Source of the DNA: Acrocarpospora corrugata
GTDB taxonomy: Bacteria > Actinomycetota > Actinomycetes > Streptosporangiales > Streptosporangiaceae
Direction of reading: 5' to 3'
NCBI RefSeq assembly: GCF_009687845.1
Contig: NZ_BLAD01000057.1
Span: 56,440 to 120,439 of the forward strand
Length of the DNA: 64,000 nt
Part shown: positions 7,869 to 16,119 of the stretch, in pieces
Layout: the number at the start of each line of letters is the position of its first letter
Numbering within the stretch: position 1 is the first letter of the stretch
The notes under the pieces: model-generated
What the model was told of the DNA's origin: nothing
Seen by the model: only the letters and a program-made list of their open reading frames with translations
The model's database searches: none
Position numbers and translations under genes: made by a program

Positions 7869-10238
7869 ATGGCGCAGTGGTGCCTCGGCGTGGACCTGGG
7901 GACGAGTTTCTCCGCGGGAGCGATCGCGACGGACCGGCGGGTGGACATCCTGGAGGTCGGCGGGGAGCGCCGGGTGCCGTCCACGATCCTGCTGAACGAC
8001 CAGGGCGTGCTGGTGTCTGGCCGGGTCGCGCAGCGGTCCATGGTCCGCCATCCGGAACGGGTGGAGCGCAACCCCAAACGTTATGTCGGGCGGGCCGCGA
8101 TGCTGCTCGGCGGCGTCGCGGTGGACGTGAAGGACGCGATGGCGGCCATCCTGTCGCTGTTCGTGGCCGAAGGCCGCACCCGGTTCGACGGCGCGGATCC
8201 GGCCATCGTGGTGCTGACCTGCCCGGTCGCCTGGCGGCCCGACCGGCGGGAGATCCTGAAGGAGGCCGGGCGCGCGGTGGTGCCGGGCGCCCGGATCGTC
8301 ATCGTGGAGGAGCCGGTCGCGTCGGCGCTGCACTACACCTCGCTGCACAGCGTCTCCGGCGGGCGGCAGGTGGCCGTCTACGACCTCGGCGGCGGCACCT
8401 TCGACACGGCGGTGCTGTCCGCCGACGGCGCCGACTTCAACGTGATCGGGGAGCCGGGCGGGGACGACATGATCGGCGGCGAGGTGTTCGACGAGCGCGT
8501 CTTCGCCTTCCTGGGGGCCCAGCTGGAGCGCTCCGCCGCCGACTGGTGGGCCGAGGTGAGCGCCAACCCGGACCGCCGTTACCGGGCCGCGGCGGCCGAT
8601 CTGCTGGACGAGGCGCGGGCGGCCAAGGAGACCCTGTCGGCGTACGACACGGCCAGCCAGTACGTGGCGGGCGCGGACGTGGACGTCCAGATCTCCCGGG
8701 CCGACCTGCACGCCCTGGTGGGCGCGGACATCATCAGGACGGCCGACATCCTGGACGAGACGATCGCGGCCGCCCGGGTGGAACGTCACCAGTTATCCGG
8801 CATTTTCCTGACCGGCGGCGCCAGCCGGATGCCGCTGGTCCACGAGACGATCAAGGCCAGGCACGGCGACCTGGTCCGCACCTACGACGACCCCAAGATC
8901 GTCGTCGCGCTGGGCGCGGCCCGGCTCGCCTGGACCGTGCTGGAAGCCGAGACCGCCAAGGTCGCGGCCAAGAACGCCGCCAAGAACGCGGCGCTCAACA
9001 CGATCGTGAGCCCGCTCAAGCCGCCGTCCAAGCCGCTGGAAGGCGGATCCCTCAAAACGGTCATGGAGGGCGTGCTCGCGGTCCGGGTGACCGCGACCGG
9101 AACCTACTGCCTCTGCGTCGACGGCGGGCGGCAGCTGCTCAGGCGGCTGGACGTCGCCACCGGCCGCGCCGACCGGGAGCTGGCCTTCGGTCCCGTCATC
9201 GACTGGGCGGCCGCCGACGAGGGCATCCTGCTGGCCGAACGCGGCCCGAACGGCGCGGTGATCCGCACCCTCACGCCGGAACTGGTGATCCAGTCCACCC
9301 AGGTGCTGCCCGGCGTGGCCGAGGTGCGGACGATCGCCAAGAACGGGATCGGCTGGGCGTTCTTCGCGCCGGGCCCGGTCGTGCCGGTCGACAACTCGCG
9401 CGGGCTGCCGTGGGGGGAGGCCGGCGAGCTGACCATGCTGGAGTTCCGGCTGGGCGGGTTCTTCCCCGAGCCGGCCCGGATGCCGCTCGGCCCCTCGGCC
9501 CGCTGGTTCGTCAACGAGGACGGCGTCCGGCGCAGGCTCCTGGACCAGGACAGCCCCACCGGCGTCGAACCTGCGCTCGCCGTCGGCTCGCCCGGCTGCA
9601 CGGTCGTGCTCGGCCAGTACGCCTTCCAGAACGGCTTCCTGCCCTGGCAGGTCTTCCTCATCATCGACCCGGGCGGGCGGGTCCGCCGGGTCGAGCGCCG
9701 CCCGCCCAACTGGCTCCAGCAGGTCGTCCTGCACGAGTCGAAGTGGTTCGTGGCGACCAGCGCCGGGCTGGAGATCGACGCCGCCCCCAACCCGCCCCGG
9801 GTGCTCGCCACCCGGCCGCGCACGGGCGCGCTGCGCTGGTTCCCGGCCGGCCGGGAGATGTACGCGGTCGGCATGGACACCGTGCTGCCGTCCCAGGGCT
9901 GGTCGGTCCAGCACTGCGACCGGAGCACCGGCAACCTGCGCACGCTCGCCCACGAGCCGGCCGGGACGCTGCTCGGGCACCTCACCTCGCGGCTGCCCGG
10001 CGAGCGTCCCCGGGTGATCGTGGACGGGGAGACGCTCTGGCTGGGGGTGTCCGGCGCGCGCAACACCTCCCGGATCATGCACGTCACGCCCGCCGGGGTG
10101 CGCCAGGCGCTGAGCGCGCCCGGCTGGGCCGAGCCGCTGGCCAGGGTCCCTTCAGGGCTGCTCTATTTGCGGCTCCCCGAGGCCGTGCCGGGGCCGGAGC
10201 AGTCGCTACCCGGCCGGCTCTGCCTCCTGCCGGACTAG
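7869..10238 (+). CDS. Hsp70-like ATPase domain fused to a propeller-like C-terminal region
   Basis: 789 residues. Residues 1-360 are an Hsp70/actin-fold nucleotide-binding domain: phosphate-1 loop LGVDLGTSFSAG (6-17), VYDLGGGTFDTAVL (170-183), hinge/adenosine loop FLTGGASRMPLV (313-324). The canonical substrate-binding domain and lid are absent. After an Ala/Lys-Pro linker (about 363-395), the remaining 390 residues are rich in short strands with repeated W/G/D turns, suggesting a beta-propeller (inference). ATG 7869 has GGAGGAGG upstream. It converges on the dynamin-like gene with a 33-nt 3' overlap, and a GrpE-like gene lies 5 kb away. It probably acts as an ATP-driven chaperone-like partner of the GTPases. 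Confidence 0.85.
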   Translation: MAQWCLGVDLGTSFSAGAIATDRRVDILEVGGERRVPSTILLNDQGVLVSGRVAQRSMVRHPERVERNPKRYVGRAAMLLGGVAVDVKDAMAAILSLFVAEGRTRFDGADPAIVVLTCPVAWRPDRREILKEAGRAVVPGARIVIVEEPVASALHYTSLHSVSGGRQVAVYDLGGGTFDTAVLSADGADFNVIGEPGGDDMIGGEVFDERVFAFLGAQLERSAADWWAEVSANPDRRYRAAAADLLDEARAAKETLSAYDTASQYVAGADVDVQISRADLHALVGADIIRTADILDETIAAARVERHQLSGIFLTGGASRMPLVHETIKARHGDLVRTYDDPKIVVALGAARLAWTVLEAETAKVAAKNAAKNAALNTIVSPLKPPSKPLEGGSLKTVMEGVLAVRVTATGTYCLCVDGGRQLLRRLDVATGRADRELAFGPVIDWAAADEGILLAERGPNGAVIRTLTPELVIQSTQVLPGVAEVRTIAKNGIGWAFFAPGPVVPVDNSRGLPWGEAGELTMLEFRLGGFFPEPARMPLGPSARWFVNEDGVRRRLLDQDSPTGVEPALAVGSPGCTVVLGQYAFQNGFLPWQVFLIIDPGGRVRRVERRPPNWLQQVVLHESKWFVATSAGLEIDAAPNPPRVLATRPRTGALRWFPAGREMYAVGMDTVLPSQGWSVQHCDRSTGNLRTLAHEPAGTLLGHLTSRLPGERPRVIVDGETLWLGVSGARNTSRIMHVTPAGVRQALSAPGWAEPLARVPSGLLYLRLPEAVPGPEQSLPGRLCLLPD

Positions 10239-15708: not shown

Positions 15709-16119
15709 CTAGGCGGTGTACTCCGGACCGGGCAGCGCGCCCTCCACGATGTCGTGCGAGCTCAGGCCGGGCTCCTCGGTGGCCGTGTCGGGGGTGGTGG
15801 CGCCGGTCTCGGGGAACAGCGGCGCGTCGTCGGCGGTGGGCGGAATGGTGACCGCCACCACGTCGGCCTGGCCGTCGCTGTTGGTGTCGAACAGCGCGGT
15901 GTCCGCGACGCCGTCATTGTCGGTGTCGAGGATCGCCGTGTCCACGTTGCCGTCGCCGTCGGTGTCGTAGGCCTCCATGTCGATGTCGCCATCGCCGTCC
16001 AGGTCGGACACGACGGCGTCGGCGACGCCGTCGTTGTTGCTGTCATACGCGGCGGTCTCGTAGTAGCCGTCGCCGTCGGTGTCGGCGAGCTCAGAGGTGC
16101 CGGCGTCGTACACGTCCAT
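15709..16119 (-). CDS. Acidic protein with six 13-residue calcium-loop-like repeats
   Basis: 136 residues. Six copies of D-x-(D/N)-x-D-G-x-x-(D/E) start at residues 13, 26, 39, 52, 65 and 78: an exact 13-residue period (39 bp, bases 15862-16083). The loops resemble EF-hand, dockerin or thrombospondin-type-3 calcium loops. The C-terminal 45 residues are Pro/Thr/Glu-rich and not repetitive. There is no signal peptide, so it appears cytoplasmic. ATG 16119 has GGAG 6-7 nt upstream. It is the first gene of the operon with the membrane protein and the GrpE-like gene. Calcium binding is an inference from the loop pattern. Confidence 0.75.
   Translation of the reverse strand: MDVYDAGTSELADTDGDGYYETAAYDSNNDGVADAVVSDLDGDGDIDMEAYDTDGDGNVDTAILDTDNDGVADTALFDTNSDGQADVVAVTIPPTADDAPLFPETGATTPDTATEEPGLSSHDIVEGALPGPEYTA

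Follow-up and report, generated by a model that had tools for sequence, protein, structure and literature searches.

The 64,000 nucleotides of the Acrocarpospora corrugata genome analysed here (contig NZ_BLAD01000057.1, positions 56,440 to 120,439; the window) contain at positions 7869-16119 a gene group encoding an Hsp70-like ATPase (Hsp70L), a GrpE-like protein and two dynamin-like GTPases (DYN1 and DYN2). We propose, with a probability of roughly 0.55, that the Hsp70-type ATPase, in which a predicted propeller takes the place of the peptide-binding domain, and the GrpE-type exchange factor drive loading or release of the IniA/IniC-like dynamin pair at the membrane. The genes occur together here and in many relatives; therefore, the chaperone cycle would likely control the timing of membrane reshaping by the GTPases. 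An earlier sequence-only reading of these positions had listed an Hsp70, two dynamins, a small acidic gene, an extracytoplasmic function (ECF) sigma factor, a GrpE-like protein, a two-helix membrane protein and a calcium-loop protein. Every one of these genes was found in its place, and Pfam searches confirmed the Hsp70, the dynamins, the ECF factor and the GrpE-like protein. An Hsp70-driven assembly or disassembly of the GTPases, as suggested in that reading, would fit the anatomy, i.e., the ATPase residues, the propeller and the GrpE-like protein with its predicted membrane anchor in most relatives.

Domain composition of Hsp70L, the GrpE-like protein and the dynamins

Hsp70L matches the Hsp70/DnaK family (PF00012, E 2.4e-38) with the nucleotide-binding domain only, including the catalytic residues; the match stops at profile position 376 of 599. 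A peptide-binding domain (beta sandwich and lid) was not found in Hsp70L, and a propeller is predicted in that part instead (Table 1). Outside family f6, the family with the M. smegmatis-type IniA, 32 of the 36 dynamin-linked Hsp70L proteins retain all six ATPase residues. The C-terminal part differs among the loci and can be of the WD40, PQQ or Vgb/YNCE type or a membrane helix.

The GrpE-like protein scored 41.8 bits with PF01025 (cut-off 25.8) over profile positions 100-163, the last third of GrpE, which cover the beta-wing. Full GrpE proteins start with a long N-terminal coiled-coil helix; in the GrpE-like protein no PF01025 match was present before profile position 100, and in relatives this place is taken by a Pro-rich stretch and a membrane helix. 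The assignment to the GrpE family thus holds by Pfam, with the correction that the protein is a truncated GrpE. All GrpE-family places in the source genome (6/6) have an Hsp70 gene at a distance of at most 5 kb.

Both GTPases are well above the Dynamin_N (PF00350) cut-off of 27 bits (63.7 and 56.2 bits) and contain the G1 and G3 motifs, GAQKRGKS and DTPG in DYN2 and likewise conserved in DYN1. The G4 positions read SQID in DYN1 and TKVE in DYN2; the usual motif is N/TKxD. DYN2 matches M. smegmatis IniA (6j72), and a hydrophobic stretch followed by an Arg-rich one in its trunk aligns with the IniA loop region. The match of DYN1 to the same structure is weaker and covers the GTPase domain; in locus L049, DYN1 aligns with the gene that occupies the iniC position. 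The two are the best PF00350 places of the genome (1e-17 and 2e-15; the next is at 1e-4). Two different dynamins lie side by side in the window, where their genes overlap, in 24/24 loci of the Streptosporangiaceae sample and in 63/68 loci of the class sample described below. Judged by motifs and matches, the pair belongs to the bacterial dynamin-like proteins of the IniA/IniC type. The genome encodes a second dynamin pair with 1126 and 541 amino acids (L103, G000:C41:184001-204000).

Conservation and coupling of the chaperone and dynamin genes

To follow the neighbourhood we used two samples. In named genomes, one per species, scanning with the DYN1 alignment yielded 49 loci; the 24 strong ones (at least 58% identity), which are Streptosporangiaceae loci, were annotated and the other 25, which were distant and partial, were left out. 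Hsp70L, DYN1, DYN2, the GrpE-like protein and the Ca-loop protein are each present in 24/24 loci and the ECF factor in 23/24, followed by the acidic gene (20/24), parC and recQ (10/24 each), the two-helix gene (4/24) and tauD (1/24). The loci span Acrocarpospora, Sphaerimonospora, Planotetraspora, Planobispora, Planomonospora, Streptosporangium, Microbispora and one unclassified strain; the same-genus genomes G001-G004 carry the locus as well. The core set is retained also where the order is rearranged or the flanks have changed. In Microbispora (L130) the genes for ECF, Ca-loop protein, GrpE-like protein and Hsp70L are grouped about 3 kb from acidic-DYN1-DYN2, all within 13 kb, which is a rearrangement with retention.

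The class sample was collected with an IniA-like (DYN2-type) alignment at E of at most 1e-60, which found 69 rows and 68 loci in 63 of 394 genomes; about 10 kb were fetched on each side, less at contig ends, and a score above 100 bits with a purpose-made profile defined an Hsp70 homologue. A non-DnaK Hsp70 homologue is located near 53 of the 68 loci and one further locus has only DnaK. The 53 loci occur in 12 of 13 families (family labels of the tool). Pfam confirmed every Hsp70 homologue submitted to it, a minority of the set, and the weakest ones checked (L216, L230, L237, L243) were all above the Pfam cut-off. Raw class counts were 20 for GrpE, with DnaK-operon GrpE genes included, and 14 for ECF. 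Full-length relatives of Hsp70L were present in seven of the 394 genomes (window included), and all seven have both dynamins nearby. Four f19 loci (L189, L190, L192, L193) hold Hsp70L, a GrpE-like protein, an ECF factor and both dynamins, in other orders; their GrpE matches exceed the Pfam cut-off in two cases and narrowly miss it in the other two. A lack of co-conservation in related genomes, which would have refuted the sequence-only reading, was thus not observed. Co-conservation, rearrangement and overlapping gene ends give strong support to the view that the Hsp70 and its exchange factor go with the dynamins.

Such joined gene ends are found in several families. Hsp70 and dynamin genes follow each other on the same strand with gaps of -4 to 37 bases in L046, L048, L213, L214, L215, L223, L254, L255 and L258, and the families with such joins are f1, f6, f10, f20, f28 and f39. 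The same range of gaps separates GrpE-like and dynamin genes in L193, L251, L252 and L253 (f19, f48). Larger negative gaps at L051, L189, L190, L192 and L193 are due to over-long calls of open reading frames. L254 has the order dynamin, GrpE-like protein, dynamin and Hsp70 nucleotide-binding domain, each confirmed by Pfam, and the last two genes overlap by 4 bases. Two genomes of the same genus as the window have large unknown proteins beside their Hsp70-dynamin loci (L051, L052), L051 also a vWA-domain protein; these neighbours perhaps represent another form of the system.

In a tree built from 61 Hsp70 domains chosen among the fetched loci, 41 of them linked to dynamins and 20 unlinked, the dynamin-linked domains needed nine label changes, at least eight of which were forced by well-supported branches. 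These domains fall into three main regions: one with f5/f6/f10/f15/f16/f38, one with f1/f19, and a small group close to DnaK and to the Hsp70s linked to DO-GTPases. Because of this scatter the partnership was retained or newly formed on more than one occasion, gains and losses being indistinguishable in the tree, and the Hsp70-dynamin association is not one frozen block.

These data bear on the simplest alternative, that the genes are chance neighbours or are held together by simple vertical synteny and act independently. With seven Hsp70 places in the 9.27 Mb source genome, about 0.015 would be expected per 20 kb, far below the 53 of 68 loci observed. The genes also stay together where their order or flanks have changed, and overlapping gene ends and separate Hsp70 lineages at dynamin loci argue in the same direction. 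We also count the second dynamin pair of the genome against chance, since its 20 kb stretch (L103) contains neither Hsp70 nor GrpE. Although the convergent Hsp70 gene and the divergent ECF gene of the window would be in line with independent genes, we regard this explanation as highly improbable.

Gene layout and the proposed membrane tethering and nucleotide cycling

On the minus strand of the window the order is acidic gene, DYN1, DYN2 with overlapping gene ends: the acidic gene overlaps the DYN1 start by 4 bases, and the dynamin genes overlap by 11. The Hsp70 is encoded beside the dynamins, as the sequence-only reading had it, but its gene faces the dynamin operon in convergent orientation and is not part of it. 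The ECF gene is divergent from the acidic gene. A second minus-strand series leads from the Ca-loop protein over the two-helix protein to the GrpE-like protein (16119-14790). The convergent ends touch or overlap for ECF and GrpE-like protein (14788-14790) and for Hsp70L and DYN2 (10206-10238), which may limit read-through or allow antisense control.

Table 1. Features of the module in the window. Named loci: the 24 annotated Streptosporangiaceae loci.
Feature	Positions	Strand	Observations
Hsp70L	7869..10238	+	789 aa; nucleotide-binding domain residues 1-376, predicted beta-propeller 396-788
DYN2, IniA-like dynamin GTPase	10206..12074	-	PF00350 2.7e-17; IniA 6j72 E 4.3e-18
DYN1, partner dynamin GTPase	12064..13854	-	PF00350 5.5e-15; IniA 6j72 E 3.1e-6
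Small acidic protein gene	13851..14114	-	start MIFDRN...PTxxESxxMF conserved; probable start codon 14099; 20/24 named loci
Conserved DNA element	14126..14155	no strand	divergent promoter region between ECF gene and acidic-dynamin operon
ECF sigma factor	14201..14788	+	PF04542 6.4e-13, PF08281 9.9e-11; 23/24 named loci
GrpE-like protein	14790..15230	-	PF01025 1.1e-10; last helix and beta-wing
Two-helix membrane protein	15271..15678	-	hydropathy; Pro/Tyr/Gly-rich N-terminal tail; 4/24 named loci, all Acrocarpospora
Ca-loop protein	15709..16119	-	DxDxDG-type repeats; 24/24 named loci

The sigma factor consists of regions 2 (PF04542) and 4 (PF08281) only, as is found in ECF factors. It scored 85-110 bits (blastp) with six factors located beside dynamin loci of other families and at most 67 bits with the five best of 37 other matches in its own genome, so that it likely represents a dedicated lineage. 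The Ca-loop protein has six DxDxDG-type repeats of 13 residues, read from the sequence; EF-hand matches were sub-threshold only, and its gene was not detected in the four f19 loci that hold the other five parts. Calcium as a cue, put forward in the sequence-only reading, is only a guess from these repeats.

Most GrpE-like proteins of the relatives begin with a hydrophobic stretch followed by a Pro-rich part; another hydrophobic stretch and then Arg-rich residues precede the GrpE part. The first stretch often ends in Gly-Cys or Ala-Cys, which we take to be lipobox-like. According to the positive-inside rule the GrpE part would be cytoplasmic. A membrane anchor (at least one hydrophobic stretch in a hydropathy script, counted from the first in-frame start codons) is predicted in 20/24 named loci. 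In the window and in L109, L110 and L111, the gene immediately upstream of the GrpE-like gene encodes a separate two-helix protein, which likely supplies the anchor in the window; A. catenulata (L128) has both the two-helix gene and an anchored GrpE-like protein. Among the loci with a non-canonical Hsp70, this protein has a membrane helix after its nucleotide-binding domain in 28 of the 39 that lack a GrpE-like gene versus 3 of the 14 that have one. Here, three of 17 loci with both genes were left out as their GrpE belongs to a DnaK operon; the count takes in the f1 loci L048, L051 and L053 from outside the class sample, and the GrpE-like match of L048, one of the 14, failed in Pfam. The pattern suggests that the ATPase reaches the membrane by one tether or the other, its own helix or the GrpE-like protein, and it is a lead rather than a proof owing to hydropathy thresholds and shared descent.

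The spacer that separates the Ca-loop gene from the GrpE-like gene contains a hairpin in Streptosporangium, Planomonospora and Planobispora, at L117:7572-7640 and at the equivalent place of 11 other loci. Compensatory changes keep the pairing in 4 of 18 predicted pairs, and its position suggests an attenuator or processing site.

Several observations weigh against a chaperone cycle acting on the dynamins. Loci within one family are not independent, and the two samples overlap in the f1 loci. No non-DnaK Hsp70 was found in the fetched stretch of 15 of the 68 class loci, three of which (G181, G270, G096) have one 11-14 kb away. A dynamin is present in the fetched stretch for 11 of the 23 more distant Hsp70L rows and absent for the other 12; therefore, this Hsp70 type is also used elsewhere. 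In the window, the convergent Hsp70L gene could have its own promoter, the conserved element of the ECF promoter region has no consistent second copy at other module genes, and the GrpE-like protein lacks a membrane helix by hydropathy, as do those of the Acrocarpospora loci L109, L110 and L111 and of L124, the four named loci without a predicted anchor. Finally, none of the 31 f6 Hsp70-like neighbours keeps all six ATPase residues, although the second Asp (D194 position) remains; ATP cycling is therefore not a general rule.

The f6 proteins nevertheless stay beside dynamins, most of them with a predicted membrane helix, as would be expected if Hsp70L were a pure scaffold for envelope maintenance that tethers the dynamins either to the membrane or to a propeller ligand, with a minor role for nucleotide cycling. 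We consider this improbable in view of the retention of the six residues in nearly all proteins outside f6 and of the GrpE-type wings beside part of them, which would be purposeless without exchange.

Related systems and the proposed cycle

The nearest published systems are the iniBAC dynamins and the DO-GTPase-Hsp70-GrpE conflict systems. Membrane fission is reported for M. smegmatis IniA in a 2019 study (Nat Commun, PMC6715688), and a 2017 study already noted the Hsp70-like neighbourhood of the M. smegmatis dynamins (PLoS Genet, PMC5760070). No paper interpreting the Hsp70-like/IniA neighbourhood turned up in our literature searches. The window resembles iniBAC in its side-by-side dynamin pair, in the match of DYN2 to IniA including the aligned trunk loop, and in the Hsp70-like gene that is found near f6 dynamins too; in G043 (f6), where IniA matches the M. 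smegmatis protein with 1014 bits, a gene for an Hsp70-like membrane protein is divergent. In contrast to f6, where the neighbours lost most of the tested residues, the window Hsp70 keeps the ATPase residues and has a propeller, and the window includes a GrpE-like protein and an ECF factor. An AAA+/LuxR-type regulator, as in iniBAC, was not among the eight window proteins scanned with Pfam. The f6 loci (e.g., L049:2969-5377) encode Hsp70-like proteins beside IniA-type dynamins, mostly with a predicted membrane helix; the one inspected along its whole length has a long Thr-rich tail at its C-terminus.

The second comparison raises the possibility of an anti-phage or self-versus-nonself conflict system, i.e., a dynamin version of DO-GTPase-Hsp70-GrpE with the Hsp70-propeller protein as sensor-regulator and the dynamin pair as effector that attacks or seals membranes. 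Kaur et al. (2020; PMC7159879) describe actinobacterial DO-GTPase GAP1-N2 conflict loci with HSP70 and GrpE, some of which include a second HSP70 without a peptide-binding domain; the word "dynamin" has no occurrence in that paper. The same genome contains two DO-GTPase2 loci of this type, L100 (G000:C73:66000-83792; DO-GTPase2, Hsp70 and GrpE by Pfam) and L101 (G000:C42:138001-158000; DO-GTPase2 by Pfam, Hsp70 and GrpE by family search). Both kinds of loci combine one or two GTPases with HSP70 and GrpE in actinobacteria; the window GTPases, however, are Dynamin_N proteins. DO-GTPase (PF19975/PF19993) is absent from the Pfam matches of both dynamins at E up to 1, and no GAP1 or FNIII protein was found among the eight proteins scanned. 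The dynamins also resemble those of LeoABC systems, with PADLOC matches of LeoA to both (1.2e-20, 3.6e-15) and of LeoBC to DYN2 (1.9e-18), and the variable Hsp70 C-terminus would also suit a conflict system. But Hsp70L and the ECF, GrpE-like, acidic, two-helix and Ca-loop proteins had no PADLOC match, and no nuclease, variable effector or mobile-element domain was detected among the eight proteins. Moreover, the module is stably present across the Streptosporangiaceae loci found, and the GrpE-like protein had no relative in one viral-contig scan. We thus consider a conflict function unlikely. The module would operate in a manner similar to the DO-GTPase systems and to the canonical DnaK-GrpE pair; from the latter it differs by the missing peptide-binding domain of Hsp70L and the missing long coil of the GrpE-like protein.

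In the chaperone-driven loading and release that we favour, ATP-bound Hsp70L would grip the dynamins, or an adaptor that is perhaps the acidic protein, through its propeller, and hydrolysis would lock this hold. At the inner membrane face, the GrpE wing would exchange ADP for ATP and free the dynamins there, so that the pair would assemble and remodel the membrane only at the anchor site. The ECF factor might control expression of the module and the Ca-loop protein might tune it. More tentatively, we envisage a dedicated bacterial Hsp70 cycle with a dynamin client, in which a propeller would have replaced the peptide-binding domain, the exchange factor would have evolved into a membrane receptor whose GrpE wing lies in the cytoplasm, and remodelling would be timed by ATP; several Hsp70 lineages would have entered or retained the partnership, and the drug-induced mycobacterial IniA/IniC would carry a worn-down relic of it.

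To our knowledge, bacterial dynamins are paired membrane remodellers for which the factors of recruitment and release are largely open. The Hsp70-type ATPase with the membrane-bound GrpE wing is a concrete candidate for such a regulator and joins the IniA/IniC field to chaperone biology. If the proposal is true, an Hsp70 domain would act as a switch without a peptide-binding domain, and an exchange factor would have turned into a membrane receptor.

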